Origin: an uncultured Blastocatellia bacterium
GTDB taxonomy: Bacteria > Acidobacteriota > Blastocatellia > HR10
Reading direction: 5' to 3'
Assembly (NCBI GenBank): GCA_937934295.1
Contig: CALHAI010000006.1
Location: forward strand, 124,001 to 188,000
Length of the DNA: 64,000 bases
Position numbers and translations under genes: made by a program. Every line of letters starts with the position of its first letter. Position 1 is the stretch's first letter. Under the pieces are notes generated by a model. It searched no databases and had not been told where the DNA came from. It saw only the letters and a program-made list of their open reading frames with translations. Positions 7,864-32,755 of this stretch are shown piece after piece.

Positions 7864-8050
7864 ACGCGCTCCTTCAGCTCTCACCTGGGATGTTGGACTC
7901 AGGGACGCCCAGCCCTTCGACTGGACACCGCGAGCAACGTCAGGCGTCATTATAAACCGACGCGGGCGCACTGGCAAATCCGCATGTTCCTCCTCGCGCC
8001 AGGTCGGATCCTCCTGAATGCGGCGCCCGTGTCCCGCACCGGAAGCCTCT

Positions 8051-8449: not shown

Positions 8450-8486
8450 CTCCCATCAGCCTCCCGAATGAAGTGCGAGGGAAGTC

Positions 8487-8515
8487 AGTATATCAGAGGC
8501 TCTCGCGTGCCGCAA
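8487..8515 (-). promoter_or_regulatory. Sigma70-type promoter for the PPOX gene
   Basis: Read on the minus strand, TTGCGG (8510-8515) and TATACT (8487-8492) are separated by 17 nt, giving a leader of about 30 nt to the ATG at 8449. The -35 is imperfect and the -10 matches at five of six positions. Confidence 0.5.
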
Positions 8516-8535
8516 TGCGTCCTCACTCCCGCGCG

Positions 8536-8563
8536 TTGACGCCTGAGCGGTTTTGTGTATCAT
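8536..8563 (+). promoter_or_regulatory. Sigma70-type promoter for yacG, predicted near-leaderless transcript
   Basis: TTGACG (8536-8541) and TATCAT (8558-8563) are separated by 16 nt. A start site about 7 nt after the -10 would leave only about four bases before the yacG ATG at 8574, and no ribosome site is visible there. Confidence 0.55.
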
Positions 8564-8573
8564 TATCCTTCGT

Positions 8574-8783
8574 ATGAGGGTCAGATGCCCACGCTGCGGG
8601 AAGCGCGTCCCCTGGGAATCGAATCCGTTCCGTCCGTTCTGCTCGGAGCGGTGTAAGCTCGTGGATCTGGGGATGTGGGCGTCGGAGGCATATCGGATCG
8701 CCGGCCCATCGGTCGGCGTCGCCGTGAGAGAACGGGCGGAGACGGAATCAGCCAAAGGCGAGGAGGAACGTGGCGACCGCTGA
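8574..8783 (+). CDS. yacG: YacG-type zinc protein, DNA gyrase inhibitor family
   Basis: A 69-residue protein whose first 30 residues carry the YacG zinc finger: C5-x2-C8 and C23-x3-C27, with [15 protein letters not shown] typical of the family. In E. coli YacG binds GyrB and inhibits gyrase; whether it does so here is inferred only from family. The C-terminal half is charged and poorly conserved. The ATG at 8574 sits about 10 nt after a good -10 element with no Shine-Dalgarno, so it may be translated from a leaderless mRNA. Its 3' end overlaps the next gene by 14 nt. Confidence 0.85.
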
Positions 8784-9375
8784 GACGACATCGAGGCGCT
8801 CGGCTTCGGCGCGCCTGACGGCTCTACTGGTGATCGCCGGGATGGTAGCGGCTTGGGCCGTATACGTGGGCTTCTTCCGAAGCGGCGTGCGACCCTCGAC
8901 GGCAGCCATCGATGGCTTGCCGTGGGCGCCCGACGGCCATCGGCGCGCCCCCGACTTCCGCATCCGTACGCTTGAAGGCCGCGAGATCACCCTCTCAGAC
9001 TTTCGCGGCAAGGTCCTCATCGTCGATTTCTGGGCGACCTGGTGCCCCCCCTGTCGCGAGGAGATCCCGCTCTTGATCGAACTGAAGGGCGCGCACGGCG
9101 ATCGCGGATTGGAGATCCTCGGGCTCACGATTGAAGATCCGGAGCACGACGCCCAGCAGGTCCAACGATTCGTCCAACAATTCGGCGTGAACTACACGAT
9201 CGGCTTCGCTCCCGACGGCATGTTCGAAGCCTTCGTCGGGCCAGGTGAACACCCCATCCCGCAAACATTCCTCTTCGATCGAGAAGGGAAACTCCGCGAG
9301 CATCTGGTGGGATACGATCCTCTGACGGACGCCCGACGGCTGCGGCGCACGATCGCGCGACTCCTTCAAGAGTGA
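8770..9375 (+). CDS. Membrane-anchored TlpA/ResA-like thioredoxin
   Basis: A 201-residue thiol-disulfide oxidoreductase. One N-terminal membrane segment (about 16-36) anchors it outside the cytoplasmic membrane. A thioredoxin fold follows, with the active site W91-C92-P-P-C95 and the cis-proline region HPIPQTFLF. Such proteins reduce apocytochrome c or other exported thiols; no cytochrome genes are next to it, so the client is unknown. The GTG start at 8770 is supported by AGGAGG with 3-nt spacing. It overlaps yacG by 14 nt. Confidence 0.87.
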
Positions 9376-9457
9376 GTCACGGGACGCCCGCTTCTCGAAG
9401 ACGCGACTTGTCCGATGGCACCGATTTCGATATATTTTCCCTGCTCGACGAAGCGCT

Positions 9458-10018
9458 ATGGGTGAGAAGGGGACGACAGGGCGAATGCGATGGCGCGTGG
9501 CGGCGATCGCGCTACTGGCGACGTTCCTCAGCGCGACGGTCATCCTTCTGGTGACGCGCGAGCGCGCCTCGGGTGTGGTGAGCATTGCGACCGATCCGCC
9601 GAAGGCGACCGTCCTCATTGATGGCCGGTGGGTCGGCCATACGCCCTTGGTGATCGAATTGACGGCGGGAACCCACCGCATCGTCATCCAGAAAGAGGGG
9701 TATAAATCGATCGAGCGCGAGATCTTCGCCGATCCGTCAGAGCCGGAGGCGAGCTATGATTTTTCGCTTGAACTGGCGATCTCCTCAGATGCTTCCGACG
9801 ATCGGCAGGAACGCATCCGCCAGCTCAAGCTCTTGGTGGAGGAGGCCCTTCGACGCGGGAATTACGTCGCGCCGGAGAACGAGAACGCGCTCCACTACCT
9901 CAACCACTTGCGGCGTCTCGCCCCGGACGATCCCTTCGTCTCTGAGATGCGCGAGCGCATTCGTCGGATCCTTCGCCAGCAAGCGGAGACCACCCGTCGT
10001 CGAAAGCACCTCTCCTAG
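9458..10018 (+). CDS. Single-pass membrane protein with PEGA domain
   Basis: A 186-residue protein with a short cytoplasmic basic N-terminus, one membrane helix (about 12-33), a PEGA domain (about 40-110; SIATDPPKATVLIDGRWVGHTP and KEGYKS) and a C-terminal helical region rich in Arg and Glu. PEGA domains are extracytoplasmic beta-sandwich modules associated with surface and envelope proteins. No enzymatic domain is present. The ATG lies about 80 nt after the thioredoxin gene; no strong ribosome site is visible. It converges with the TPR gene at 10040. Confidence 0.8.
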   Translation: MGEKGTTGRMRWRVAAIALLATFLSATVILLVTRERASGVVSIATDPPKATVLIDGRWVGHTPLVIELTAGTHRIVIQKEGYKSIEREIFADPSEPEASYDFSLELAISSDASDDRQERIRQLKLLVEEALRRGNYVAPENENALHYLNHLRRLAPDDPFVSEMRERIRRILRQQAETTRRRKHLS

Positions 10019-10039
10019 GCCGACGGTTCTCCGAGAGGC

Positions 10040-11074
10040 TCAAAGCTGCCGGTTCTGCACGCGCACCAGCTCTCGCAACTTCTTCACCCGTTCGCGAATC
10101 TCGGCGGCGTTGGTCGCGTTCGGGACCTCTTCGAGATACTTCTCCGACTGCTCCAACGCGCGCGCGTACTCCCCGCGCCGCAGGAAGAGGTTCGCCAGAT
10201 GCAAGCGCACGATCGAGGCCGTCGGTGGAGGACCGAGCGAGAGCGCCCTCTGCAGCTCGTTCTCCGCGCGCTCGAGATCGCCCGTCTGCATGAGCGCGAT
10301 CCCATGCAGCATGCGCGCGGACCAATTGGCCGGATCGAGCGTCACAGCCTGCTGCAGATGCGCGAGCGCCGCTTCATATTCCCGTTGCAGCAGGTGGAGG
10401 AATCCCAGATTCACATGCGGATGGGGGGCCTGAGGGTCCACTTCGATGGCCTGTTGAAACGCCGTGCGCGCTTGGGCGAGCTCGTTCAGGCGGAGATACT
10501 GGACGCCGAGATCATTGAGCGCCTGGACGTATCGAGGATGAAGAGCGAGCGCCCGTTGGAAATGCGCGATCGCTTTTTGCGGATTCCCCTTTCGTGATTC
10601 TTTGGCCCCTTTTTCGTATGCCTTTCGCGCCTCTTTCGGGATCGCTTCGGCCAGACGCGCCACGGAGACCGTTCCGGCGGCTGGTCGTTCGGAGGCCACG
10701 CGCTCCTTCTCGCGCAAGAAGACGTTCTGCGTGAAGACGCGGGCAGCACGACTGAAGACCTCGATGCGCTCGACCTCGGTCGCGTATCGGTCCGTCTCCC
10801 ACACGACGATCTCGTAGGTCCCATTGGGCACACCGCGGAACTCGAAATTCCCCAGCGAATCCGTGAACGTCTCATTCACGACGCTCTGCCCGAACGTGCG
10901 CAGCGTCACACGAAAGCGCTCTTCGGCGGGCGCGCCCGTCGGGAGATAGACGCGCCCGCGAATCTGATGCAGCGCGGCACCGGGGCTGGACGCCGGCCGC
11001 CCTTGCCCCTCTTGACGCGCTCGCCCCTCAACAGCGAAGACCAAAGTGATGAGGATCACACAGGCGGCACGCAT
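10040..11074 (-). CDS. Exported protein: carboxypeptidase-regulatory-like domain plus TPR repeats
   Basis: The 344-residue protein begins with a cleavable-looking signal peptide (MRAACVILITLVFAVEGRA). A beta-sandwich of the CarboxypepD_reg/CNA-B type follows (about 36-120; IRGRVYLPTGAPAEE and NFEFRGVPNGTYEI). Then come tandem TPR units (about 148-320), for example KGNPQKAIAHFQRALALHPRY. It is likely a periplasmic or outer-membrane scaffold. It is the last gene of the long minus-strand run that begins at rpoZ, 35 nt after the HIT gene. Confidence 0.85.
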   Translation of the reverse strand: MRAACVILITLVFAVEGRARQEGQGRPASSPGAALHQIRGRVYLPTGAPAEERFRVTLRTFGQSVVNETFTDSLGNFEFRGVPNGTYEIVVWETDRYATEVERIEVFSRAARVFTQNVFLREKERVASERPAAGTVSVARLAEAIPKEARKAYEKGAKESRKGNPQKAIAHFQRALALHPRYVQALNDLGVQYLRLNELAQARTAFQQAIEVDPQAPHPHVNLGFLHLLQREYEAALAHLQQAVTLDPANWSARMLHGIALMQTGDLERAENELQRALSLGPPPTASIVRLHLANLFLRRGEYARALEQSEKYLEEVPNATNAAEIRERVKKLRELVRVQNRQL

Positions 11075-11109
11075 ATCCCTTGACTCCTCCTCATGGGACG
11101 AACGAGGAC

Positions 11110-11601
11110 TCAGCGAAGCGGGGCGTCCTCGAAATATCGCCGCAACTTTCGATAGGTCGTCTCCAAATCCTCGGGCAAGACGCGGGTCTCAGCGATGACG
11201 GTCGTGAAGTTCGTGTCGCCAAACCAACGCGGGAGCACATGCAGATGGAAATGATCGGCGATGCCCGCTCCGGCCGCCCGCCCCAAATTCATCCCGAGAT
11301 TCAAGCCATGCGGGCGGTAAACCTCCGTGAGCACCCGGCAGCAATACTTGGCCAGATCGGTCATCTCGTCGGTGAGGCTCTTGGGCGCTTCGGCAAAGGA
11401 CGCCAGATGCGCATAGGGCGCGATCATCAGATGGCCCGTCGTATAGGGATAGAGGTTCAGGATGATGAAATTCTCCCGCCCGCGATACAGGATCAAAGCC
11501 TGCTCATCGCTCAACCGAGGGGCCTCGCAAAAGACGCAGCGCGTTTGCTCCTCGGCCGTCGAGACGTAGCGGAATCGCCATGGACTCCAGAGAAGGTCCA
11601 T
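11110..11601 (-). CDS. HIT-family hydrolase/phosphorylase
   Basis: A 163-residue histidine-triad protein with the motif H117-F-H119-L-H121 followed by VLPRW. The N-terminal SPWRFRYV and CVFC (22-25) blocks resemble the branch that includes Ap4A phosphorylase and Fhit-like dinucleoside polyphosphate hydrolases. The substrate is probably a dinucleoside polyphosphate or an AMP conjugate. The ATG starts 2 nt after the HU gene stop, so translation is probably coupled. The surrounding proteostasis genes would suit an alarmone-clearing role, which is speculation. Confidence 0.88.
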   Translation of the reverse strand: MDLLWSPWRFRYVSTAEEQTRCVFCEAPRLSDEQALILYRGRENFIILNLYPYTTGHLMIAPYAHLASFAEAPKSLTDEMTDLAKYCCRVLTEVYRPHGLNLGMNLGRAAGAGIADHFHLHVLPRWFGDTNFTTVIAETRVLPEDLETTYRKLRRYFEDAPLR

Positions 11602-11603
11602 CC

Positions 11604-11930
11604 TTACTGATTGAGCAACTCCTTCAGCTCCTTCCCCGGCTTGAAATAGGGCATACGCTTGGGAGGGACATCCACCACCTCACCCGTCTTCGGATTCCGC
11701 CCGCGCCGAGGGCCACGCTCGCGAAAGCGGAAGGAACCGAAGCCGCGCAACTCGATCCCCTCGCCTCGCTTCAGCGCGCTGACCAAGCTCTCCAAGACCG
11801 TCTCGACGATGACCTGCGAGTCCTTTCGCGCGAGTTCGGCCGCACGAGCGACCTCCTCGATGAGATCCGCCTTCGTCAACGTCTTCTTCTTCGGCAACGA
11901 CACGCCTTCAATCGGCTCCTGTGCTTCCAT
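11604..11930 (-). CDS. HU/IHF-family DNA-bending protein
   Basis: A 108-residue histone-like protein. The KKTLTKADLIEEVA start and the arm region GFGSFRFRERGPRRGRNPKTGE, followed by PYFKPGKELKELLN, are diagnostic of the HU/IHF fold. It carries an N-terminal extension of about 18 residues compared with E. coli HU. The ATG at 11930 is preceded by GGGAGGGGAGG; an upstream ATG at 11954 would add eight residues. It dimerises and bends DNA. Naming it HU rather than IHF is not possible from sequence alone. Confidence 0.9.
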   Translation of the reverse strand: MEAQEPIEGVSLPKKKTLTKADLIEEVARAAELARKDSQVIVETVLESLVSALKRGEGIELRGFGSFRFRERGPRRGRNPKTGEVVDVPPKRMPYFKPGKELKELLNQ

Positions 11931-11984
11931 AGCCTCCCCTCCCGCAGAAGACACGCGCTAAGGTAACAAATCTCCCCCCACAGA

Positions 11985-12311
11985 TCAAGATGCGCTGAGG
12001 GATCGTTCGAGCCACTCCAAGTAGGCCTCCGAACCCTCCACGATGGGGAGGGCCAGGATCTCCGGGACTTGATAGCTATGCCGCTCCCTCACCGCCGCCA
12101 TGAGCATCGGCCACTTCGCTCGCGCCGTCTTCACCAGAAGCAGCACCTCGCGATCCCGAACGACCCGCCCCTCCCACCAATACACGGATTCGACCTCGGG
12201 GACGATCGTGACGCACGCGGCCAGCCGCTCGCGGACGAGCGCTTCGGCGATCCGCTCGGCCTCCTCGCGAGAACTCGTCGTGATCAACCCCACGCAATAT
12301 TCCCCGCTCAT
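11985..12311 (-). CDS. cutA: CutA1 divalent-cation tolerance protein
   Basis: A 108-residue protein matching CutA1 along its length: LITTSSREEAERIAEALV, ERLAACVTIVP, SVYWWEG, LLVKT and RHSYQVPEILALPI. CutA1 forms very stable trimers related to PII proteins. The copper-tolerance role in E. coli is weakly established, so the function here is uncertain. It lies 13 nt after bshB1, in a tight co-directional group. Confidence 0.92.
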   Translation of the reverse strand: MSGEYCVGLITTSSREEAERIAEALVRERLAACVTIVPEVESVYWWEGRVVRDREVLLLVKTARAKWPMLMAAVRERHSYQVPEILALPIVEGSEAYLEWLERSLSAS

Positions 12312-19509: not shown

Positions 19510-22152
19510 TCATTCGGCCACCGACACCTCCTTCGGCTGAACCGAGAAGGTGAGGCGGCCGCCATCCTCATCCACGATCACGAGAGAATTATCTCGCACC
19601 TCTCCCTGCAAGATCAATTTTGCCAGCGGCGTCTCCACCTCCCGCTGGATCACCCGCTTGAGCGGCCGCGCGCCGAAGACGGGATCATAGCCCCACTCGG
19701 CCAGGCGCGTCTTCGCTCGCTCGGTCAGTTCCAACTCGATCTGCCGATCCCGCACGCGGTGCCGCAGTCGTTCGAGTTGGATCTCCACGATGCGCTTCAG
19801 ATGCGCCTCCGTCAGCGCATGGAAGACGACGATCTCGTCCACGCGGTTCAGAAATTCTGGGCGAAACGTCCGCCGCAATTCGGCGAGCACGGTCTCTTTC
19901 ATCCGCTCGTAATCCTCACCCCTCTCGCCACGATGCTCGAGGATCAAATGGCTCCCAATGTTCGACGTCATGATGATGATCGTGTTCTTGAAATCCACCG
20001 TCCGACCATGACTGTCGGTGAGCCGTCCGTCATCGAGGATCTGCAGGAGGATGTTGAAGATATCCCAATGCGCCTTCTCCAGCTCATCGAAGAGGATGAC
20101 CGAATACGGCCGACGGCGCACGGCCTCGGTGAGCTGCCCCCCTTCTTCGTATCCGACGTAGCCAGGCGGCGCACCGATCAATCGAGCGACCGAATGCTTC
20201 TCCATGTATTCGGACATGTCGATCCGAATGAGGGCGCGTTCGTCATCGAAGAGACACTCGGCGAGGGCGCGGGCCAGCTCCGTCTTCCCGACGCCGGTCG
20301 GACCGAGAAAGATGAAGCTGCCGATTGGGCGATTCGGATCTTTCAAGCCCGCGCGTGCCCGACGCACGGCCTCGGCCACGGCGCGAACGGCTTCCTCCTG
20401 GCCGACGACGCGGCGGTGCAACTCGTCCTCGAGCCGCAGCAGCTTCTGAATCTCCCCTTCGAGCAGACGGCTCACGGGGATGCCCGTCCAACGGCTCACC
20501 ACCTCGGCGATGTCCTCCTCATCCACCTCCTCTTTGAGCAAGCGCACGCCACCATGTCGCGACGCCAGCTCCGCGAGCTGTGTCTCTTGCTCGCGCATCT
20601 GCCGCTCCAACTCGACCAAACGCCCGTAGCGTAACTCGGCCGCACGATTGAGATCATAGGCCCGCTCGGCTTGCTCGATGAGGATCTTCGTCTGCTCGAT
20701 CTGCTCGCGCAACTCGCGCAAGCGGGCGAGGATCTGCTTCTCCTCCTCCCACTGCGCGCGGAGCCGATCCGCACGCATGCGCAATTCGGCCAGCTCCTCC
20801 TCGATCTTACGCAATCGCTCGCGCGAAGCCGGATCGGTCTCCCGCTTCAACCCCTCGCGCTCGATCTCCAGTTGCATGATCCGCCGCAGGATCTCATCCA
20901 ACTCCGAGGGCATCGAGTCGATCTCGGTCCGCAACCGCGCCGCCGCCTCGTCCACAAGATCGATCGCTTTGTCCGGCAAGAAGCGATCGGAGATATAGCG
21001 ATGGCTGAGCATTGCCGCAGCCACCAGTGCCGAGTCCTTAATGCGCACGCCATGATGGACCTCGTATCGCTCCTTCAACCCGCGCAAGATCGAGATCGTG
21101 TCTTCGACCGAGGGCTCGCCGACTAGGATCGGTTGGAAGCGGCGTTCGAGCGCGGCATCCTTCTCGATGTACTTGCGATATTCGTCGAGCGTCGTCGCCC
21201 CGATGCAGCGCAGCTCGCCGCGCGCGAGCATCGGCTTCAGCAGATTGCTGGCATCCATCGTCGCGCCTTCGGCCCGACCGGCGCCCACGACCGTATGCAA
21301 CTCGTCAATGAAGAGGACGATCTCGCCCTGCGACTCCTGCACCTCGCGGAGCACGGCCTTCAGCCGCTCTTCGAATTCGCCACGATATTTCGCGCCCGCG
21401 ATGAGCGCCCCCATGTCCAGTTGAATGACGCGCTTGTTCTTCAAGCCCTCGGGGACATCCCCGCGCACGATGCGCTGCGCCAGCCCCTCGACGATGGCCG
21501 TCTTGCCGACGCCCGGCTCACCAATCAGGACCGGATTGTTCTTAGTCCGACGCGAGAGCACCTGAATCACTCGTCGGATCTCATCGTCCCGTCCGATGAC
21601 GGGATCGAGCTTCCCTTGGGCGGCGAGCCGGGTCAGATCGCGCCCATAGCGCTCGAGCGCTTGATACGTCGCTTCCGGCGTCGGGCTGGTCACCCGCTGC
21701 GTGCCGCGAATCTGCTGCAAGGCCTTCATCAGGCGATCCCGATCCAGGCCAAGGTCCAGCAGGATGCGTCCAGCCGCGCCACTGCGCCCCTCCTCCAGGA
21801 TCGCCAGCAGGATGTGCTCGACGCTCACATATTCGTCCTTGAGCCGCGCCGCTTCATCCTCGGCCACCGCGAACAGACGATTGAGCCGCCCGGTGATGTA
21901 GACGTAGTCGGGGCCGGCCGCCGGACCGCTCACCTTCGGCCAGCGCGCCAGCTCCTGTTCCAAGCGGGTTCGGACGAGCTTCGGATCCACACCCGCCTTC
22001 TCCAGAATCGCCGAGGCCAAACCGCCTTCTTGCTGCAGGAGCGCCAGCAGCAGATGCTCGACGTCAATTTGTTGATGGCTATAGCGCGCCGCGAGGCTTT
22101 GCGCTGCGCGCACCGCCTCTTGCACCTTCTCCGTCAGGCGATTGAAATCCAT
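19510..22152 (-). CDS. clpB: Disaggregase ClpB
   Basis: The 880-residue Hsp100 protein has all ClpB parts. These are an N-domain of two repeats (1-145), NBD1 with Walker A GEPGVGKT (about 205), and a long coiled-coil middle domain (about 405-530) rich in Glu, Arg and Leu. NBD2 has Walker A GPTGVGKT near 610, and a C-terminal oligomerisation domain completes it. The middle domain and lack of a ClpP loop separate it from ClpA/C. It extracts polypeptides from aggregates together with DnaK. It lies 60 nt after the dnaJ-like gene in the HspR-type chaperone run. Confidence 0.96.
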
Positions 22153-22212
22153 AGCCCCTCTCCCAACCCTGATCTCTTCAGAAGCGCATCTCGATGAGGC
22201 TCTGCACGATGC

Positions 22213-23142
22213 TCACTGTCGCGGGTTGAAGCTCGACTCGCGCGCCAATTGCTCGAACAAGCGACGCTCGGCCGGCGTCGGATTCGTGGGGACGACGATC
22301 CGAAGCTGCACATACTGATCGCCGCGTCCACCGCGCCGACGGTTCAAGCCCTGACCACGCAGCCGGAGCTTCTGCCCGCTCTGCGAGCCTGGCGGGAGCG
22401 TCACCTCCACGGTGCCCTCCAACGTGGGAACCCGGATCTTCCCCCCTAGCACGGCCTCCCAGGGCGTGATCGGGACCTCGACGTAGACATCGTCGCCGGA
22501 GACCGTGAAGATCGGATGCTTCTGCAACCGGACCTTCAAGTAGAGATCGCCTGCCTGACCGCCCAGGCCTGGTTCGCCTTGTCCCGCGAGCCGAATCACC
22601 GAACCCTCACGCACGCCAGCTGGGATCTTCACCTCGACCGTCCGCCCATTGGGGAGCGTGACCCGTCGCGTCGTCCCGCGATGTGCTTCCTCAAGCGTGA
22701 GCGTCAGCTCGGACTCGATGTCGTTCCCTCGAATCCCCCACCCGACACGCGTGCCCGTCGCCGAACGGCGCGATGCCGCCCGACCACGCAGCCCCCCAAA
22801 GAGCGCCTCGAAGAAATCGCTGAAGCTCCCGGGCCTACCCGTGAAGAAGTCGAAATCGCCGAAGTCGATCCGAATCTTCTCCCAATCCGGCGGTGGCGTG
22901 AAGTCCGCGCCCGCTCTCCAATGCGGTCCCAACCGATCGTAGAGTTCGCGCTTCTTGGGATCCCCCAGGACCTCGTAGGCCTCGTTGATCTCTTTGAATT
23001 TCTCCTCCGCCTGCTTATCCCCCGGATTCAAATCCGGATGATACTTTCGGGCCAAGCGGCGGAAAGCCGCCTTGATCTCATCTTGAGTGGCCGTTCGAGG
23101 GACACCCAGGATCCCGTAGTAGTCTTTGTACTTGACCGCCAT
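22213..23142 (-). CDS. DnaJ/CbpA-type Hsp40 co-chaperone without zinc domain
   Basis: A 309-residue class II J-protein. The J domain (1-70) has the HPD tripeptide in [11 protein letters not shown] Gly/Phe region (about 85-130) follows, then two beta-sandwich peptide-binding domains ([53 protein letters not shown]). The four CxxCxGxG zinc repeats of DnaJ are absent, as in CbpA. It stimulates DnaK ATPase and delivers clients. It sits between the acidic protein gene and clpB. No classical dnaJ is in the window. Confidence 0.93.
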
Positions 23143-23220
23143 AGCCCATCCCCAGCAGGGGGTGGCTCAGTTTGGGCCCTCTTGGCCTTGTGGCCTTGGC
23201 CAGGAGCGCGCCATGCCTGT

Positions 23221-23712
23221 TCATCCTCGCCAATTCAGGGCCTGAATCAGCTCGGCCCGCGCCAGGTTCTCCTCCCGCCGCGCCGCGCTCAGCTCAGCAA
23301 TAGCTCGCTGATATTGCTCCTTCAGGCGGTCGGGCGGACGAGGTCCGGCATCGCGCAACTGCGCGTTGATGTCGCGCACGCGCTCCAAGGTCGCCCGTAC
23401 GCGCTCGCGCGCCGCCAGCAGCCGTCGCATGAGCCGCGCCAGCATCTCCTGGCGCGTCTCATACCGAGGAGCAACCGGCTCGACCATCTCTTCCTCAGGC
23501 TCGGATACCGCCTCCGAGATCGGCACTTCCTCCTCCTCGACCCCCTCTTCGGCGAGCTCTAAGGGCTCTTCCTCTACGGCGAAATCGTCCTCGTAGTAGT
23601 CCTCCTCGAGGACATCATTATAGGGTTCGATCGGTTCTTCATAGGTGGAAGCCGGCTCTTCCGGCGTGGGGAGAGCCGGCTCTTCGGCTTGCGTCTTCTT
23701 CCGACGTGGCAT
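23221..23712 (-). CDS. Acidic coiled-coil protein in the grpE position
   Basis: This 163-residue protein has a disordered, very acidic N-terminal half (about 10-80, mostly Glu, Pro, Tyr, Asp). The C-terminal half (about 85-160) is strongly helical and rich in Arg, Glu, Leu and Ala, probably a coiled coil, ending near ALNWRG. It has no GrpE beta domain and I recognise no family. It occupies the slot between dnaK and dnaJ that grpE fills in many genomes, with gaps of 36 and 78 nt. A role as a chaperone accessory protein is inferred from position only. Confidence 0.75.
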   Translation of the reverse strand: MPRRKKTQAEEPALPTPEEPASTYEEPIEPYNDVLEEDYYEDDFAVEEEPLELAEEGVEEEEVPISEAVSEPEEEMVEPVAPRYETRQEMLARLMRRLLAARERVRATLERVRDINAQLRDAGPRPPDRLKEQYQRAIAELSAARREENLARAELIQALNWRG

Positions 23713-23748
23713 AGGATGCCTCCACTAGGTTCCACGCCATGGCTGACC

Positions 23749-25632
23749 TCAATGACTGGGTTTGAATTCCGCATCAATCACATCATCGGATCCGCCATCG
23801 GATCGGCTCGACGTTCCTGCCCCAGCCGAGGTCGCATGCCCATACGCGATGGCTGCGATCTGATGCGCGACCTGTTGCAACTCGGACGTGAGCTGGCGAA
23901 TCCGCTCGATCCCCGCCTCCTCCTTGACGGCTTGGCGGATCTCCTGGATCAAATGCTCGGCGCGCGCGCGCTCCGGCGCTGGCACCTTGTCGCCCAGATC
24001 GCGCAAGGTGCGCTCGACCTGATAGGCAAGGCTATCGGCCTGATTGCGCGCTTCGACCAGCTCGCGCCGCCGCCGATCCTCCTCCGCGTACATCTCCGCC
24101 TCGCGGATCATCCGTTCGATCTCCTCCTTGGAGAGTTGCGTCGAGCCGGTGATCGTGATCTTGGCCTCGCGCCCGGTCGCCTTATCGCGCGCGTTCACAT
24201 GCAGGATGCCATTGGCATCAATATCGAACGTCACCTCGATCTGCGGGACGCCGCGCGGCGCTGGCGCGATGCCCTCCAGACGGAACCGCCCGAGCGTGCG
24301 GTTATCGCGCGCCATCTCGCGCTCGCCCTGCAGGATGTGAATGTCCACGGCCGTCTGATTGTCCTCGGCCGTCGTGAAGATCTCCGTCCGCCGCACAGGA
24401 ATGGTCGTGTTCCGCTCGATGATCTTCGTCATCACGCCTCCGAGCGTCTCCACCCCCAGTGAGAGCGGGACGACATCCAGCAGCAGGACCTCCTTGACCT
24501 CACCCGCCAGCACGCCCGCCTGAATGGCCGCCCCGATGGCCACCACTTCGTCCGGGTTCACCGACTGATTCGGCTCCTTCCCGAGCAACCGCCGCACCAG
24601 CTGCTGCACGGCCGGGATACGCGTCGCTCCCCCGACGAGGATGACTTCATGAATGTCCCGCTCAGTCATCTTCGCATCGGCGAGCGCTTGCTGGACCGGC
24701 CCAATGCAGCGTTCGACCAGATCGGCCGTCAACTGCTCGAACTTCGAGCGCGTCAGCTTCATCTCCAGATGCTTCGGTCCGGTGGCATCAGCCGTGATGA
24801 AGGGGAGACTGATAATCGTCTCCATGACGCTCGAGAGCTCGATCTTCGCCTTCTCGGCCGCCTCGGTCAACCGCTGCAGCGCCTGGCGATCCTTGCGCAA
24901 ATCAATCCCATACTCCCGCTTGAACTCCTCGGCCAGCCAATCCACGATCCGTTTGTCGAAATCATCGCCGCCAAGATGCGTGTCGCCGCTTGTCGCCTTC
25001 ACCTCGAAGACCCCATCGCCAACCTCCAGGATGGAGACGTCAAAAGTCCCTCCCCCGAGATCGAAGACCAGGATGGTCTCATTCTTCTTCTTGTCCAATC
25101 CATAGGCGAGGGCCGCTGCCGTCGGCTCGTTAATGATCCGCAGGACGTTTAACCCAGCGATCTTCCCGGCATCGCGCGTGGCCGTCCGCTGCGCGTCGTT
25201 GAAGTACGCCGGAACGGTGATCACCGCATCGGTGATCTTCTCGCCGAGATAACGCGAGGCATCCTCCACGAGTTTGCGCAGGATCATGGCCGAGATCTCC
25301 TCCGGCGAGTAGAGCTTCCCCATGATGTCAAACCGCACGGCATCATTGGGTCCAGCCACAACCCTGTATGGGACATTGCGGATCTCGCTCGTCACCTCCG
25401 AATAGCGCCGCCCCATGAACCGCTTGACCGAATAGATCGTGTTCTCCGGATTCAAGATCGCTTGCCGCTTGGCCAACTGCCCGACGAGCCGCTCCCCCGC
25501 CTTGGTGAACGCGACGACAGAAGGGGTCAAACGACTCCCCTCACTGTTGATGATGACCGTCGGCTTGCCCCCCTCCATGACAGCGATCACGGAGTTCGTC
25601 GTCCCTAAGTCAATGCCTACGGCCTTCGCCAT
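23749..25632 (-). CDS. dnaK: Chaperone DnaK (Hsp70)
   Basis: A full-length 627-residue Hsp70. The ATPase domain (1-380) shows [24 protein letters not shown] and [10 protein letters not shown]. The substrate domain (about 390-505) begins after the conserved linker [13 protein letters not shown], and the helical lid ends in [10 protein letters not shown]. It folds and disaggregates proteins with the J-protein and ClpB encoded downstream. It is the second gene after rpoZ in the run controlled by the HAIR-like operator. No grpE is in the window. Confidence 0.97.
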
Positions 25633-25671
25633 GGTCCCTCCCTCCTCGGCAAGATTCGGCTGTCGGCCCCC

Positions 25672-25911
25672 TCAGCGAGCAGCCCGACTGCGTCGGCCAC
25701 GACGCGCCTGTGGCTTCTCCAACTCCGGTTGCTCGAAGGGGATCTTCCCCTCGTTCAACTCCTTCAACGCCTGAGTGATAGCCCACGCCAGCCCCTGGCT
25801 CTCCGGATGCTTCACCAGCTGCTTGGCGCGCTTGGCCACAATCGAGCAAATCAAATAGCGACTGTCAAACCTTGAGAGGGCCTCCTCCGCCAGCTTCACC
25901 CTCGTCGTCAT
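25672..25911 (-). CDS. rpoZ: RNA polymerase omega subunit
   Basis: A 79-residue protein. The RYLICSIVAKRAKQL segment (about 19-33) and AITQALKELNEGKI (about 44-57) are the two conserved omega helices; the tail is basic. Omega assists assembly of the core polymerase. It is the first gene after the operator-bearing promoter and is followed 39 nt later by dnaK. That makes it the leading gene of a heat-shock transcription unit, which I consider unusual. A GGAGGGA site precedes the ATG. Confidence 0.88.
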   Translation of the reverse strand: MTTRVKLAEEALSRFDSRYLICSIVAKRAKQLVKHPESQGLAWAITQALKELNEGKIPFEQPELEKPQARRGRRSRAAR

Positions 25912-26056
25912 TGTCCCTCCCTCCTGGTCGTGAAGTCTGCAAGGACTCCTTGCGAGCCCTCTCCCTCGCGCCAGGAGATTATATTCAATGAACAGCTCAC
26001 GTTCAAATACCCCTGCTGCGGCTAAAAGCAGAACTGCAAGCTTTTAGCCAATTCTT

Positions 26057-26085
26057 ATAATAAAATATGAGTCCGAGTTTGTCAA
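26057..26085 (-). promoter_or_regulatory. Promoter of the rpoZ-dnaK run
   Basis: On the minus strand TTGACA (26080-26085) and TATTAT (26057-26062) are separated by exactly 17 nt. This is the strongest promoter match in the window. The -35 lies inside the HAIR-like element, so a bound repressor would exclude RNA polymerase. Confidence 0.75.
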
Positions 26086-26086
26086 G
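26066..26086 (-). promoter_or_regulatory. HAIR-like HspR operator, left copy
   Basis: On the minus strand this reads CTTGACA-N7-ACTCATA. The consensus HAIR is CTTGAGT-N7-ACTCAAG, so five of seven bases match in each half with the spacing conserved. It is the mirror image of the copy at 26148-26168: 19 of 23 aligned bases are identical and only the four central spacer bases differ. Confidence 0.7.
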
Positions 26087-26147
26087 TCCCCCATAAGGCG
26101 CATCCCGCCGATTCCCTCTCCCCAGAGATAGAATGGACCGGCGAAAA

Positions 26148-26168
26148 CTTGACAAAGCTAGACTCATA
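26148..26168 (+). promoter_or_regulatory. HAIR-like HspR operator, right copy
   Basis: CTTGACA-N7-ACTCATA on the plus strand, overlapping the -35 of the hspR promoter. The centre lies 82 bp from the centre of the left copy. This would let HspR repress both the chaperone run and its own gene. Confidence 0.7.
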
Positions 26169-26177
26169 TATTAGCAT
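26149..26177 (+). promoter_or_regulatory. Promoter of hspR-infA
   Basis: TTGACA (26149-26154), a 17-nt spacer and TAGCAT (26172-26177). The -35 is perfect and the -10 matches at four of six positions, so it is predicted to be weaker than the divergent promoter. Confidence 0.55.
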
Positions 26178-26229
26178 TCCCTTTTGGAAACGAGGGTATG
26201 TCTCGTCCTCCAAATCGCGGGAACGGGAG

Positions 26230-26682
26230 ATGGCCAATGGGGTGAAAAAGCGGAGAGAGAAAGGCTACACAATCAGCGCAGTCTCTGAGGCCTATGGGAT
26301 TCACCCTCAGACACTGCGGCTCTACGAGCGGCATGGGCTATTGAAACCTTCCCGCTCAAAGGGGAACACGCGGTACTATTCTGAGGAAGACCTCGAGCGA
26401 TTGGAGTTCATCCTGACACTCACGCGCGAGTTGGGTGTGAATCTGGCAGGAGTGGAGATCATCCTCAATATGCGGGACAAGATGGATGCCATGCAGCGAG
26501 AGATACAGCGGTTCTTGGAGTATCTGCGGATGGAGGTGGGCGAGCGCCTGGTCTCGCAAGTGACGGAGAAGTTCGCGCTGGTGCCGCTCAACTATAGCGC
26601 GTGGCTGCGCGTGCGCGCTTCGGCTTCGGAGGCGGAGGATGAGCACGATGCCTCGTTCACCTACATCGAACACGATCACTGA
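26230..26682 (+). CDS. hspR: HspR-type MerR-family heat-shock repressor
   Basis: A 150-residue regulator of the MerR family. The N-terminal winged helix-turn-helix (about 13-60; YTISAVSEAYGIHPQTLRLYERHGLL, then GNTRYYSEEDL) and the ELGVNLAGVEIIL block are hallmarks of HspR, which represses chaperone genes by binding HAIR sites with DnaK as co-repressor. Two HAIR-like elements lie in its upstream region. A coiled-coil segment (about 85-115) and an acidic tail follow. The ATG at 26230 is preceded closely by GGGAG; GTG 26242 is an alternative. infA follows 19 nt later. Confidence 0.9.
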   Translation: MANGVKKRREKGYTISAVSEAYGIHPQTLRLYERHGLLKPSRSKGNTRYYSEEDLERLEFILTLTRELGVNLAGVEIILNMRDKMDAMQREIQRFLEYLRMEVGERLVSQVTEKFALVPLNYSAWLRVRASASEAEDEHDASFTYIEHDH

Positions 26683-27149: not shown

Positions 27150-27782
27150 ATGCCGAGGATAGGCGGGGTGGTCGTTCATAAAGAGCTGAAGGAGGCGCGG
27201 CGGAATCAGATCCTCTTCTTCGCCAAACAGGTCTTCTCGCAGAAGGGGTATCACAACGCGAGCGTCTCGGACATCATCGAAAGCGCGGGCATCGCGCGGG
27301 GGACGTTCTATCTCTATTTCACGAGTAAGCGCGATATCTTCGACAGTCTCCTGGATGAAGTCCTCAAGGAACTGCGCCAACGGATTCGGCCCATTGACCT
27401 CAGCCCGGGTGCGCCCGATCCGCTCGCGCAGGTCAAGGCGAACATCGGTCGCGTCCTGGAGTTTCTTGTTCACGATCCCGAGCTGACGAAGATTCTCCTC
27501 CATCAGGCAGCAGGCTTGGACGAACGCTCGGCCGCCATGCTGCAGACCTTCTACGATCGCGTCCTGTCGCTCATCGAACGCTCTCTGGAACATGGGATTC
27601 GCATGGGCCTGGTGCGTCCTTGTCGAACGCGCATTGTCGCGTCCTGCATCTTGGGGACGATGAAGGAGGTGGCCGATCAATTGACAACTCAGCGCGAGGA
27701 TCTTCCGCCGCTTGAGGTTGTCATCGAGGAACTCTTCAACTTTGGCCTGCGCGGCGTCTTCGCCCGCTCGGCCACGTCGTGA
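27150..27782 (+). CDS. TetR-family transcriptional regulator
   Basis: A 210-residue regulator. The helix-turn-helix is in the first 60 residues (ASVSDIIESAGIARGTFYLYFTSKRDIF), and the C-terminal helical ligand domain resembles the FadR/AcrR group that often senses acyl-CoA or hydrophobic compounds. GTGAGG lies 6 nt before ATG 27150; ATG 27144 is an alternative. Its stop is 14 nt before a perfect 30-bp palindrome that precedes the activase/dehydratase genes, so it is the obvious candidate to control them. Confidence 0.88.
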   Translation: MPRIGGVVVHKELKEARRNQILFFAKQVFSQKGYHNASVSDIIESAGIARGTFYLYFTSKRDIFDSLLDEVLKELRQRIRPIDLSPGAPDPLAQVKANIGRVLEFLVHDPELTKILLHQAAGLDERSAAMLQTFYDRVLSLIERSLEHGIRMGLVRPCRTRIVASCILGTMKEVADQLTTQREDLPPLEVVIEELFNFGLRGVFARSATS

Positions 27783-27796
27783 AATTTTTTTACCTC

Positions 27797-27826
27797 CCCA
27801 CTAGACTGACATGTCAGTCTAGTGGG
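27797..27826. promoter_or_regulatory. Perfect 30-bp palindrome, predicted TetR operator
   Basis: Each 15-nt half (CCCACTAGACTGACA and its complement) pairs without a mismatch. The core GACTGACATGTCAGTC has the form of many TetR-family sites. It lies between the tetR stop and the first catalytic gene of the operon, 26 nt before ATG 27853. Confidence 0.7.
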
Positions 27827-27852
27827 TGGCACCACAGATGGGAGATGCGCCT

Positions 27853-29370
27853 ATGGAGACGATCCAGAGGATCAACCACTACACGGCCTATCGGCCTCGC
27901 CCCTTTACGCGAGAGGAGCGGGCAACGGTGACGATTCTCTTCGGAGGATTGACCTGGAAGCACGAGCGATTGATCCAGGGCGTACTGCACAATCTGGGCT
28001 ATAAGGCCCAGCCGCTGCCGAACATCACGCGGGCGGATTTGGATGCGGGGAAGGAGCTGATTGATGTCGGGGCGTGCTGTCCGACGATCTTCACGACGGG
28101 GAATCTGGCGAATTTCCTCAAGTCGGAGATGGCCGTACTGGGCCGCGACGAGGTCATGAAGCGCTATGTCTTTCTGACGGCGGGAGCGTGTGGTCCCTGC
28201 CGGTTTGGGCAGTATCATGAATCGTACACGATGGCGCTTGACGGGCTTGGACTTCGGGACTTCCGCCTATTCTTGCTGGCACAGAACCAGCTTGATCAGG
28301 GCGCGACCCACGGCGGGGGGTTAGAGATCAATCTCCCCTTGAGCTTGGGGCTCATCTGGGCGATCCTCTGCGCCGATGTATTGACCGATCTCGAATACAT
28401 GACGCGTCCCTACGAGATCGTCCCCGGGGAGACGGATGAGGTCCTGCGCGAGAGTATCGCGTATCTGTATGACGTCTTCCGTAATCGGCCTCCGGAGAAG
28501 CTGTGTGGAGGGAAGCTGAAGGTCTTCGCGTGGCATGTCCTGACCGACTACTTCACCGATGCCTTGCGTGAAGTGCGGAAGCGATGGGATGCCATTCGCG
28601 TGGATCGGCTTCAGGTCAAGCCGAAGGTGAAGATCACGGGCGAATTCTGGCTCCAGACGCATGAGGGCGATGGCAACTACAACATCAAGCGGTGGCTCGA
28701 GCAGGAGGGGGCGGAGGTCATTCCGCCGCCGATCGCCGTTTGGCTCGACTATCTGCTGCATTCGCCGATCACCTCCGAGGAATGGAAGGGTGCCGAGCGC
28801 AATCGCAAGAAGATCGCGCTTCTTCGAGCCGTGGAGCAGATCTATCACTTCGTCTACAATCGTTTCCGCAAGGCGCTCGGCAATCTCCCCTATGAGCTTC
28901 CCGATCAAGAGGAGCTCAAGCACTTGGCCAAACCCTACTACCACTACGAACTGCGCGGGGGCGAAGGGCATATGCTCGTGGGGAAAGCCCTCTATGCCTA
29001 TCGGCATAAAAAGGCGCACATGATCTGCGAGCTGTCGCCCTACTCCTGTATGCCGAACACGATGTCCATCGGCGCGATGGCCAACGTGCTCGGCCGCTAT
29101 CCGGATCTGCTCTATGCACCGATCGAGGTGAAGGGGGATGCCGAAGTGCACGCGCTCTCCCGATGCCAGATGATCCTGACCGAAGCCAAGCGGCGCGCTC
29201 ATGCGGAATTTGAGGAGGTGCTCGCCAAGACCGGCCTCACCGTGGAGGCGATCCGCCGTTACGAGGAGCGGCATCCGGAGGTGCAACGGAGCACCTATCG
29301 GATCCCGCACTACGGCTACGCGGGCACGGCGGCCAATTACGTCTTGCACCTAGCGCGGAAGATGCGGTGA
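27853..29370 (+). CDS. HgdB/BcrC-like component of a 2-hydroxyacyl-CoA dehydratase-type system
   Basis: A 505-residue protein of the large group that includes 2-hydroxyglutaryl-CoA dehydratase and benzoyl-CoA reductase subunits. Candidate cluster ligands are Cys75/76 (VGACCPTIF), Cys113/116 (GACGPC) and Cys392/399 (CELSPYSC), with Cys438 later. Such proteins hold [4Fe-4S] or double-cubane clusters and receive low-potential electrons from an ATP-driven activase, which is the next gene. The reaction and substrate are unknown. The ATG at 27853 follows GGGAG with 7-nt spacing; a GTG nine codons earlier falls at the edge of the operator palindrome. No subunit with a recognisable acyl-CoA specificity is nearby. 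Confidence 0.8.
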   Translation: METIQRINHYTAYRPRPFTREERATVTILFGGLTWKHERLIQGVLHNLGYKAQPLPNITRADLDAGKELIDVGACCPTIFTTGNLANFLKSEMAVLGRDEVMKRYVFLTAGACGPCRFGQYHESYTMALDGLGLRDFRLFLLAQNQLDQGATHGGGLEINLPLSLGLIWAILCADVLTDLEYMTRPYEIVPGETDEVLRESIAYLYDVFRNRPPEKLCGGKLKVFAWHVLTDYFTDALREVRKRWDAIRVDRLQVKPKVKITGEFWLQTHEGDGNYNIKRWLEQEGAEVIPPPIAVWLDYLLHSPITSEEWKGAERNRKKIALLRAVEQIYHFVYNRFRKALGNLPYELPDQEELKHLAKPYYHYELRGGEGHMLVGKALYAYRHKKAHMICELSPYSCMPNTMSIGAMANVLGRYPDLLYAPIEVKGDAEVHALSRCQMILTEAKRRAHAEFEEVLAKTGLTVEAIRRYEERHPEVQRSTYRIPHYGYAGTAANYVLHLARKMR

Positions 29371-29418
29371 GCGCCGGGAGACGTCTCGACGAGAGGCTGC
29401 TGGCAAGGAGGGGAGGCG

Positions 29419-31596
29419 ATGATTTGCGGCATTGATGTCGGCAGTACGACGTGCAAATACGTTTTGGCCTCGTCCGAAGGGGAGATCTTGGCACAAGCCT
29501 ACGAACGGCACAACACGCGACAAGCGGAGAAGGTCCTGGAATTCCTCACCCGCCTGGAGCGCGAACATGGGCTGACGCCGGGGCGAGACCGCGTCTTCTT
29601 CACCGGGTCGGGAGCCGGCATGATCGCTTCGCTCGTGGGCGCTCGGGTCGTTCAGGAAGTCGTTGCCGTGGCGGCGGCCGTCGAGCGCTTGCATCCGGCC
29701 GTTCGGTTCGTCAGCGAGATCGGGGGCGAGGACATGAAGACGATCTTCTTCACTGGCGACGGTTCCTCCAAGGGGAAGCACGTCCTCATGCAGAGCGCCT
29801 GCTCGGGGGGGACGGGCACGTTCATCGAGAAGACGGCACGCAAGTTGCAGATCCCGTTGGAGCAATTGGCGGAGATGCGCTACGAGGGGTATCCGCTCCA
29901 TAAGATCAGCAGCAAGTGCGGCATCTTCGCCGAGGCGGATGCCAATACGCTGCTGAAGGCGGGCGTTCCTGTCGAGGAGATCATCGCTTCGCTCTTTGAG
30001 GCCGTCGTCTATCAAAATCTCGCGACGCTCACCCGCGGCAACACGCCGATGCCGGAGGTCCTGCTCCTTGGCGGGCCCAACCTCTTCTTCAAAGGCTTGC
30101 AAGAAGCCTGGCGCCACCACCTGCTCAAGATCTGGAAGGAGCGTAAGGTCCCACTGCCGGAAGATCAAGACCCGGCCTTGCTCATCAGCGTCCCCAAGAA
30201 TGCGCTCTATTACGCGGCCCTCGGATGCATCGAGATCGCGCGACGTGAGCCGGAGCATGTCGGGGTGTACCAGGGTGGAGAGAGGCTTCGGTGGTGGATC
30301 GAGGAGGGGCAGTACGAGGAGAAGAAGCGAGAGGGGCGAAGGGGCCTCTGGACGACGCCAGAGGAGCTGCAGCAGTTTCGGATCATCTACGGGAACAGTG
30401 GGCGCTCCGATTCTCGACTCTCCCTTCGGAAGGGGCGCACAGCTCCCGATCTCTCGCGCGTGATCCTCGGGTGCGATTTCGGCTCGACGACGGCCAAAGC
30501 CGTTTGTCTCTCGCCTGAGAAAGAACTGGTCTTCTCCTGCTACGCCCTCAGCCGCGGCAACCCCATCGAGGATGCCAAAGCGCTCTTTCGCCAGATTCGA
30601 GCGGCCGTCGGAGATGGGGAGATCCTGGCCGTCGGCATCACCGGTTATGGGAAGGACCTGCTCAAGGGGATCATCGGGGCCGATTGCGCGGTGGTGGAGA
30701 CGATCGCGCATGCGACGGCCGGACTCTATGTCTTCCCCGATGCCGATTGCATCTGTGATGTGGGAGGGGTGGACGTCAAGATCATGATCCTCAAAAACGG
30801 CACGGTCTCGGACTTTCGGCTCAACTCGCAATGCTCGTCGGGAAATGGCGCCTTCCTTCAAGGCGTGGCCGAGCGCTTCGGTATCCCCCTGGAGCAGATC
30901 GCCGACTATGCCTTTCGCGCGCAGGCCATGCCGCAGTTGACGATGGGCTGCGGCGTCTTCCTCCAGAGCGACATCGTGAACCAACAACGCAAGGGCTGGC
31001 AGGCTGAGGAGATCCTCGCCGGACTCTGCACCATCCTCCCGCTGAACGTGTGGATCTACGCCGGAGGGTTGAACAATCTCGCGCAGGTCGGACGAAAATT
31101 CATCCTCCAGGGGGGGACGCATAAGAACTTGGCCGTCGTTAAGGCGCAGGTGGATTTCATCAAGTCGAAGGTCCCGGAGGCCGAGATCGTCGTCCATCCA
31201 TATTCGGGCGAGGCGGGGGCCATCGGCGCGGCGCTCATCGCCCACGAATGGTGGGAGTGCGGCGGGCGCACCCGTTTCCGTGGCTTCGACGTCATCGAGA
31301 ACCTCACTTACAAGACGACGACTTCGCCCGATACGGTGTGCAAATGGTGTCCCGTCAACTGTCAGCGCAGCTTCATTGACGTCGAACTGCCGGGCGGCAA
31401 GGGGCGTCCGTGGAGCAAAGTGCCTCTCCCCGAAGGATGGGAGCGCGTGATCGTGAACAATTCGTGCCCGAAGGGGCTTGTCGAGGATGTCAACGAGATG
31501 AAGGTCATTAAAGCCGCACTGGAGAAGACGAAAAATGCGTATCCCAACATTGCGGATTTTGTTCGGAAAGAAGGCTTCCGCCGCGTCGCCACCTAA
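29419..31596 (+). CDS. Tandem-fused acyl-CoA dehydratase/reductase activase (BcrAD/BadFG/HgdC family)
   Basis: A 725-residue ATPase made of two activase domains in one chain. Domain 1 (about 1-270) has GIDVGSTTCKYV and C128/C167. Domain 2 (about 348-610) has GCDFGSTTAKAV and C472/C511. Both Cys pairs are 39 residues apart, as in the homodimeric HgdC activator, where two subunits share one [4Fe-4S] cluster. Here all four ligands would be on one polypeptide. A C-terminal block with C641-x2-C644-x3-C648 and C683 may bind another metal centre. It hydrolyses ATP to inject electrons into the partner component. The ATG follows AAGGAGGGGAGG; the gene overlaps the next by 62 nt. Confidence 0.85.
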   Translation: MICGIDVGSTTCKYVLASSEGEILAQAYERHNTRQAEKVLEFLTRLEREHGLTPGRDRVFFTGSGAGMIASLVGARVVQEVVAVAAAVERLHPAVRFVSEIGGEDMKTIFFTGDGSSKGKHVLMQSACSGGTGTFIEKTARKLQIPLEQLAEMRYEGYPLHKISSKCGIFAEADANTLLKAGVPVEEIIASLFEAVVYQNLATLTRGNTPMPEVLLLGGPNLFFKGLQEAWRHHLLKIWKERKVPLPEDQDPALLISVPKNALYYAALGCIEIARREPEHVGVYQGGERLRWWIEEGQYEEKKREGRRGLWTTPEELQQFRIIYGNSGRSDSRLSLRKGRTAPDLSRVILGCDFGSTTAKAVCLSPEKELVFSCYALSRGNPIEDAKALFRQIRAAVGDGEILAVGITGYGKDLLKGIIGADCAVVETIAHATAGLYVFPDADCICDVGGVDVKIMILKNGTVSDFRLNSQCSSGNGAFLQGVAERFGIPLEQIADYAFRAQAMPQLTMGCGVFLQSDIVNQQRKGWQAEEILAGLCTILPLNVWIYAGGLNNLAQVGRKFILQGGTHKNLAVVKAQVDFIKSKVPEAEIVVHPYSGEAGAIGAALIAHEWWECGGRTRFRGFDVIENLTYKTTTSPDTVCKWCPVNCQRSFIDVELPGGKGRPWSKVPLPEGWERVIVNNSCPKGLVEDVNEMKVIKAALEKTKNAYPNIADFVRKEGFRRVAT

Positions 31597-32755
31597 GGAT
31601 CGCTCGTCGGTGCGCGTGGGGATCCCGAAGGTCCTCAATATCTGGAGCACCCATCAATTCTGGGTGGGATTTCTGACGGCTCTGGGGATCGCGCCCGAGA
31701 ACATTGTCTTCAGCTCCGACACTTCTGAAGAGCAATATCGCGAGTACGGCAAGGGGCGCGGTACGGTGGACTGCTGCTATCCGGTCAAGTGCATGAGCGG
31801 ACACTACGGGGAATTGATCTTCGGCCAGAAGAAGAAGATCGACATCCTGCTGAGCCCGATGATCTATTCCCTGCCCTCCTTTCTGCGCGGCCATGTGCTG
31901 GACACGCTCACCTGCACGCGGGTGATGGCGGGACCGGAGAACATCAAGGCGGGATTTCTCAAAGAGCGCGACGTCTTCGCCGAGAATGGGATTCGATACG
32001 TCTCGCCGTTTGTCTCGCTCGGTGAGCCGGAGAAGGTCCCGAAGCAACTCCATCTCGCGCTCAAAGACGTCCTCGACCTCGACGAAGAGGAGACAGCGCG
32101 GGCCGTCGAAGCCGGATACCGGGCCCTGGAAGCGTTCACTCAGAAGATGCGGCAGAAGAGCCGGGAGATCCTCACCTGGTGCGCGCGTCACGACCGCCCG
32201 TGCATTCTGGTGTTAGCGCGCCCGTATCACATGGACCCGGGCATTGGGCATGAGATCGAAGCCGAACTGCAGGCACACGGATTTCCTATCCTCTGGATGC
32301 AGTACCTCCCCATCGACGACGATCTCATGCAGTGGCTCTTTGGCGAGGAGATCCGCGCCGGACGGATCAAGAGCCCCTTCGATATCTCGGACGTCTGGCC
32401 TTCGTCCTACAGCAGCAACACGAACGAGATCCTGTGGGGAGCGAAGGTCGCCGCTCGCTGCCCGTGGATCACCTGCGTCATCCGCTTCTCCAGCTACGAA
32501 TGCGGGATGGATCAGCCGACCTATACGCCAACGCAAAAGATCGTCGAGGCCTCGGGCACGCTCTATTTCAAATTCGGCGATCTGGATGCCACGAAGCCGG
32601 CCGGCAGTATCAAGATTCGCGTCGAGACGATCGTGCACTATGTTGAGAAGTACTCGCGCGACCTCATTCGGCGCAAGCTCGCGGCGTTGCCCCCGCGCTG
32701 TCCGCTTCTGGAGGACGCGGCCCCGACCTCTGAGAGCGCATCGCTGGCGGCCTGA
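31535..32755 (+). CDS. Second HgdB/BcrC-like component (DUF2229-type)
   Basis: A 406-residue protein related to the 2-hydroxyacyl-CoA dehydratase D-component superfamily and to the DUF2229 region of giant CoA-activase fusions. Candidate ligands are C80, C81 and C86 (TVDCCYPVKC) and C127 (TLTCTRV). A late block CILVLARPYHMDPG and SSYECGMDQPTY are also conserved-looking. The ATG at 31535 lies inside the activase gene with GGAG 9 nt before; GTG 31610 would remove the overlap. With the other two genes it forms a three-subunit low-potential reductase or dehydratase of unknown substrate. Confidence 0.8.
   Translation: MRIPTLRILFGKKASAASPPKDRSSVRVGIPKVLNIWSTHQFWVGFLTALGIAPENIVFSSDTSEEQYREYGKGRGTVDCCYPVKCMSGHYGELIFGQKKKIDILLSPMIYSLPSFLRGHVLDTLTCTRVMAGPENIKAGFLKERDVFAENGIRYVSPFVSLGEPEKVPKQLHLALKDVLDLDEEETARAVEAGYRALEAFTQKMRQKSREILTWCARHDRPCILVLARPYHMDPGIGHEIEAELQAHGFPILWMQYLPIDDDLMQWLFGEEIRAGRIKSPFDISDVWPSSYSSNTNEILWGAKVAARCPWITCVIRFSSYECGMDQPTYTPTQKIVEASGTLYFKFGDLDATKPAGSIKIRVETIVHYVEKYSRDLIRRKLAALPPRCPLLEDAAPTSESASLAA

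Follow-up and report, generated by a model that had tools for sequence, protein, structure and literature searches.

The PlsA-PlsR and Ger enzymes convert lipid ester bonds into (vinyl) ether bonds (PMC12838417, PMC13274423), and a shared architecture of two activase and two reductase regions, Act1-Act2/Red1/Red2, has been published for them (PMC12838417, PMC13274423, PMC8788747, PMC11150832). Here we analyse a locus of an uncultured Blastocatellia bacterium of hot-spring type, at 27150-32755 of a 64-kb stretch of contig CALHAI010000006.1 (the window). Open reading frame (ORF) calling and a palindrome search confirmed in it a tetR gene, a perfect 30-bp palindrome and a module of three genes, named A, B and C below, all genes on the plus strand, as described in an initial annotation of the same DNA. 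Domain correspondence, phylogenetic placement, conserved cysteines and the co-conservation of TetR with its operator, all established here by sequence comparison, suggest that the three genes encode an ATP-driven lipid ester-to-ether reductase; we put the probability of this function at roughly 0.7.

Relatives were collected by scanning public genomes of bacteria and archaea, mostly metagenome-assembled, with organism names taken from the record titles. They fall into three clades. Clade I, 53-94% identical to A, has the layout of the window (A-B-C, with B and C as separate genes) and was found in Acidobacteriota, Aquificota, Rokubacteria, Beta- and Gammaproteobacteria, Hyphomicrobiales, Binatia, a planctomycete and a spirochaete. 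In clade II (40-46% identity to A), common in Bryobacteraceae and Solibacter-like acidobacteria, A is followed by a fused B-C chain. Clade III, at ~20-30% identity, comprises fused proteins of ~1400 aa or pairs of ~1030 and ~430 aa. Within the class to which the window belongs, a DUF2229 gene occurs in nine of ten sampled genomes of its own order and in none of 108 others.

B, C and A align collinearly to the successive Act1-Act2, Red1 and Red2 stretches of the fused and two-gene proteins of clade III. A matches their Red2 regions with E values of 3e-8 to 9e-27, and B aligns with the fused relatives over both activase domains and a C-terminal four-cysteine motif. Pfam recognizes BcrAD_BadFG (PF01869) twice in the single chain of B and DUF2229 in C (148.7 bits); the A protein had no match in Pfam or NCBIfam. 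This correspondence with the PlsA-PlsR/Ger architecture overturns the view of the module as an undescribed system of open substrate, and makes a phospholipid ester bond, rather than a free acyl-CoA, the likely substrate. A lipid ester substrate would also explain why no CoA-ligase or aromatic-pathway genes are found close by. The published domain order, Act1-Act2-Red1-Red2, is not retained, the order in the window being Red2 (A), Act1-Act2 (B) and Red1 (C). As the known one-gene and two-gene forms already differ in where they are split, we regard the permuted order as a variant and not as disqualifying.

A maximum-likelihood tree that included HadBC, BzdNO, MbdNO, the double-cubane cluster protein (DCCP) and a benzoyl-CoA-reductase-like pair encoded elsewhere in the same genome placed A within the Red2 group (100/99) and C within the Red1 group (72/86). 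The 2-hydroxyacyl-CoA dehydratase (HAD), benzoyl-CoA reductase (BCR) and DCCP sequences lay together on one side of a 100/99 branch, in agreement with the earlier expectation that A and C stand outside the characterized dehydratase and BCR clades; several branches of the tree are long and fine placement is unsure. Structural models (AlphaFold mean predicted local distance difference test 87.9 for A and 89.6 for C) were compared using Foldseek. The confident matches of A were DCCP, the best, and 3-methylbenzoyl-CoA reductase (MbdO), and the best twelve of C were HAD, DCCP and BzdNO; confident fold matches of both proteins were confined to the BCR/HAD superfamily, at modest TM-scores of 0.34-0.48. 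Sequence searches of PDB with A and C, using single sequences and profiles, returned nothing meaningful, and only the fold search linked them to known structures. A profile comparison of A with C gave an hhalign E value of 1.7e-4 and a probability of 50%, pairing Cys75 of A with Cys81 of C, and Cys399 of A with Cys323 of C. When the fused relatives were scanned against NCBIfam, the matches were limited to models of activase domains and of unrelated kinases, with no PlsA or Ger model. The literature under DUF2229 and COG identifiers yielded almost nothing, and the connection emerged from work on plasmalogen synthase. The description of A as HgdB/BcrC-like holds by fold only, and both A and C are nearer to DUF2229/PlsAR-type proteins than to HgdB or BcrC. 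The broader proposal of an ATP-driven reductase of the BCR/HAD superfamily with a double activase was sound, and we consider the placement of the module in this superfamily and lineage very likely to be correct.

The same superfamily and the same type of ATP-driven activase would also be expected of a 2-hydroxyacyl-CoA dehydratase or BCR-like enzyme of CoA ester catabolism. The 100/99 split from HadBC, BzdNO and MbdNO speaks against such an enzyme, as do the lack of an HGD-D match in A (11 of 49 A-type members match DUF2229 instead) and the absence of a CoA ligase or transferase nearby. Moreover, the genome has its own BCR-like set elsewhere, and a role of the window module in CoA ester catabolism appears highly improbable. 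That separate set (locus L007; genome G000, contig C3 122000-141999), at 8022-12166 of its locus, has four genes, encoding two HGD-D proteins and two single activases, and is preceded by a short-chain dehydrogenase/reductase gene and an amidohydrolase-like gene. Its HGD-D proteins are nearest to MbdN and MbdO of 3-methylbenzoyl-CoA reductase (E values of 1e-80 and 2e-70).

Cysteines 75, 116 and 399 of A and 81, 127 and 323 of C are kept in all clades, as are the pairs 128/167 and 472/511 and the C-terminal four-cysteine motif (641, 644, 648, 683) of B. By analogy with BzdO, which has a three-cysteine [4Fe-4S] site (PMC11971306), the triplets of A and C fit one such site per subunit. In clade I, A carries additional cysteines, at position 76 in 45 of 47 sequences and at 113, 392 and 438 in all 47; clade II retains only Cys113 and clade III none. 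Less strictly kept are the clade I extras of C (80, 86, 216, 223 and 314), among which 80, 86 and 314 are jointly missing in the Aquificaceae-type rows. This conservation suggests that the extra cysteines may bind a second or larger Fe-S cluster; an enlarged cluster in A itself is possible, at somewhat less than even odds. In B, the glutamine of the Act2 GGQD motif (residues 449-454, GGVD) is replaced by V, C or T throughout clade I and is Q in clades II and III, and the first activase domain has E at this position in clade I. These changes may make the two ATP sites of B unequal.

The cysteine pattern also bears on whether the module could be a DCCP-like reductase of the double-cubane type, derived from the PlsA/Ger architecture and now acting on a small molecule or metabolite instead of a lipid. 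DCCP is the best fold match of A, no lipid gene is linked to the operon, and the near-invariant cysteines of A number seven in clade I but three in clade III, the [8Fe-9S] cluster of BzdN using six (PMC11971306). However, the cysteines of A (75/76/113/116/392/399/438) do not occupy the chain positions of those of BzdN (36/73/100/263/293/327), and the tree places neither A nor C in the DCCP branch. DCCP is, furthermore, a homodimer served by a single-domain activase, whereas the window has two reductase genes and a double activase. We therefore judge a DCCP-like function unlikely.

The reading as a lipid ester-to-ether reductase draws support from the lipids of related hosts. Cultures of Aquificales contain mono- and dialkyl glycerol ethers (PMC4339782), and nine of the ten Aquificaceae genomes that were checked have a single DUF2229 gene, the clade I one; the tenth (G196) has none, probably owing to incompleteness. 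A relative of A is present in 45 of 64 Aquificaceae genomes and no match to A was found in the other 19; about 36 of the 45 belong to clade I (at least 70% identity to a Hydrogenobacter-type query) and the others lie near 42% identity. Solibacter usitatus, a relative of the clade II hosts, makes ethers without ElbD, and PlsAR homologs have been proposed instead (PMC10087280). Among 14 control genomes, DUF2229 was detected in four, including those of Thermotoga maritima and Lactococcus lactis, species with a tested Ger and a tested PlsA, respectively (PMC12838417, PMC11150832). Within the class to which the window belongs, a DUF2229 gene occurs in nine of ten sampled genomes of its own order and in none of 108 others.

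Several points weigh against this function. At ~20-30% identity to clade III, the substrate could have changed, and clade III is itself called PlsA/Ger-like on the grounds of its architecture and not of a phylogeny that includes tested enzymes. The lipid data cited come from organisms other than that of the window. Many of the hosts come from groups that include aerobes, yet most members of the enzyme family are oxygen-sensitive. Finally, no lipid gene was found beside the operon in the relatives examined. Nor was a shared operon partner hinting at the substrate found: the neighbours vary by lineage and include major facilitator superfamily and tripartite ATP-independent periplasmic (TRAP) transporters, FeoB, GCV_H and argininosuccinate synthase. 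In Rokubacteria, a gene of ~280 aa overlaps the start of A (L062:80-958, L068:3017-3853, L072:5091-5912), and one copy has a weak match, below the cut-off, to fatty acid desaturase 2.

If the module does act on lipid esters, A, B and C would form one enzyme complex of the PlsA-PlsR/Ger lineage. B would act as a pseudo-dimeric ATPase whose halves hold an Fe-S cluster between them, ATP serving to push single low-potential electrons into an A-C heterodimer. There, Fe-S clusters held by the three conserved cysteines of each subunit, together with the extra cysteine-rich site of A, would reduce the acyl ester bond. The substrate would be a membrane glycerolipid and the product an alkyl (or alkenyl) ether lipid. 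Production of vinyl ethers (plasmalogens) instead of saturated alkyl ethers is a variant of this reading suggested by the fact that PlsA and Ger are indistinguishable by sequence (PMC13274423). Two activation domains, however, correlate with alkyl ethers (PMC13274423), and it is alkyl ethers that have been reported for Aquificales and Solibacter (PMC4339782, PMC10087280), so that vinyl ethers seem a fairly unlikely product.

Control of the operon by TetR through the palindrome, proposed in the initial annotation, is borne out by the conservation of the operator together with tetR across three phyla. No other perfect palindrome in the window exceeds 16 bp, and a search of the whole genome (2.79 Mb) for the 18-bp core, with up to three mismatches allowed, found it only once. 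The operator core, ACTAGACTGACATGTCAGTCTAGT, is identical 5' of A in the window and in its close relatives HR08 and HR10, as well as in another genome of the order and in a planctomycete with a TetR of 49% identity; the 18-bp core also stands beside tetR and A in four further genomes of the genus. In Aquificaceae, where tetR precedes A in one apparent operon, a near-identical TTAGACTGACATGTCAGTTCAG is found just 5' of tetR. Of 30 loci of this family, ten have tetR, and nine of these carry the motif, the remaining one being truncated on its upstream side; the motif is absent from all 20 loci that lack tetR. The loci are related to each other and do not amount to 29 independent trials. Even so, phylogenetic footprinting strongly supports the pairing of regulator and operator. 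A terminator was considered for the palindrome and rejected, as no T-run follows it on either strand; it is also conserved in sequence, not by compensating changes. In a sister genus (L124 and L125; genomes G168 and G157), two operator copies lie 174 bp apart between tetR and A, one of them with an altered centre.

The regulator has TetR_N and TetR_C_24 domains, and its nearest NCBIfam model is FadR of Bacillus (68.6 bits, below the cut-off of 200); these matches point only loosely to fatty-acid-related effectors. TetR would bind the palindrome and repress the operon, and would probably be released by a fatty-acid-related ligand. A TetR gene also lies 3' of a fused PlsA/Ger-like gene in a Collinsella aerofaciens record (NZ_OY725717, L188 5912-6601).

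The features of the locus are listed in Table 1. For tetR, the downstream start is favoured by relatives that align only from residue 14 of the longer ORF. The sequence GGGAGA precedes the start ATG of A at 27853. The offset in frame between B and C, and the start of C inside B, are kept, across phyla, in almost every clade I locus. A programmed frameshift fusing B and C was considered, the frame offset being constant, and rejected: the start codon that C possesses within B is conserved, and in relatives without the overlap C opens with a similar peptide. Initiation of C inside B thus explains the arrangement more simply. A heat-shock block adjoins the operon at 19510-26682 and comprises ClpB-like, DnaJ-like, likely GrpE and DnaK-like genes and an HspR-like MerR regulator.

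Table 1. Regulator, operator and reductase genes of the locus, in window coordinates
Feature	Position	Strand	Description
tetR	27117/27150-27782	+	TetR-family repressor, TetR_C_24 type; ORF opens with GTG 27117, likely start ATG 27150
Palindrome CCCACTAGACTGACATGTCAGTCTAGTGGG	27797-27826	none	Probable TetR operator, immediately 5' of gene A
Gene A	27853-29370	+	505 aa, Red2/PlsR-like reductase subunit (predicted)
Gene B	29419-31596	+	725 aa, fused double activase (Act1-Act2)
Gene C	31535-32755	+	406 aa, Red1/DUF2229 reductase subunit (predicted)
B/C overlap	31535-31596	+	62 nt, different frames; C start inside B

Bacterial ether lipids underlie the question of the 'lipid divide' and the palaeothermometer based on branched glycerol dialkyl glycerol tetraethers, and an enzyme making ether lipids has been tested only in a few anaerobes. 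The module provides a concrete three-gene candidate in Acidobacteriota, in Aquificaceae, the cultures of which have long been known to contain ethers, and in lineages that have aerobic relatives. The regulator and operator would offer a direct handle on the timing of ether-lipid production, and the extra cysteines raise the question of whether lipid reduction involves an 8Fe cluster. On the comparisons made here, clade I is a distinct branch of the PlsA/Ger lineage that spans many phyla, and the module of the window is a permuted, three-gene variant under TetR control, marked by a distinctive cysteine pattern. We advance tentatively, with the odds somewhat against it, the fuller proposal that clade I constitutes a type of lipid ester reductase in its own right, with an enlarged (8Fe-type or second) Red2 cluster, occurring also in lineages with aerobic members. 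It would then supply the ether-lipid enzyme so far missing from Aquificaceae and from several lineages of acidobacteria and proteobacteria, partly under a dedicated fatty-acid-sensing TetR.

Among described systems, PlsA-PlsR of Clostridium perfringens and the one-gene PlsA of Enterococcus, Lactococcus and Bifidobacterium likewise have two activase domains, Red1 and Red2, and belong to the BCR/HAD superfamily. The window form differs from them in its three genes in the order Red2, Act1-Act2, Red1, in the extra cysteines of A, in the replacement of the Act2 GGQD glutamine by V, C or T, and in a TetR with a conserved operator. Ger of T. maritima and Desulfatibacillum alkenivorans shares with the window form the double activation domain, and by analogy reduction of esters to alkyl ethers would be expected. 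Ger is described as a PlsA homolog of different domain architecture, whereas the window form is a three-gene set, the proteins of which show ~20-30% identity to fused proteins of PlsA/Ger type. DCCP, with its activase DCCP-R, resembles the window form in the fold of A and C and in ATP-driven electron transfer from an HgdC-type activase, and differs in the homodimeric reductase, the single-domain activase, the cysteine positions along the chain and its placement on a branch of its own. Class I benzoyl-CoA reductases (BzdNO, MbdONPQ) and HadBC have the fold, the three-cysteine [4Fe-4S] pattern and the activase family in common with the window form; they make up a separate branch (100/99) and lack DUF2229, and their activases are single domains too short to hold the C-terminal four-cysteine motif.

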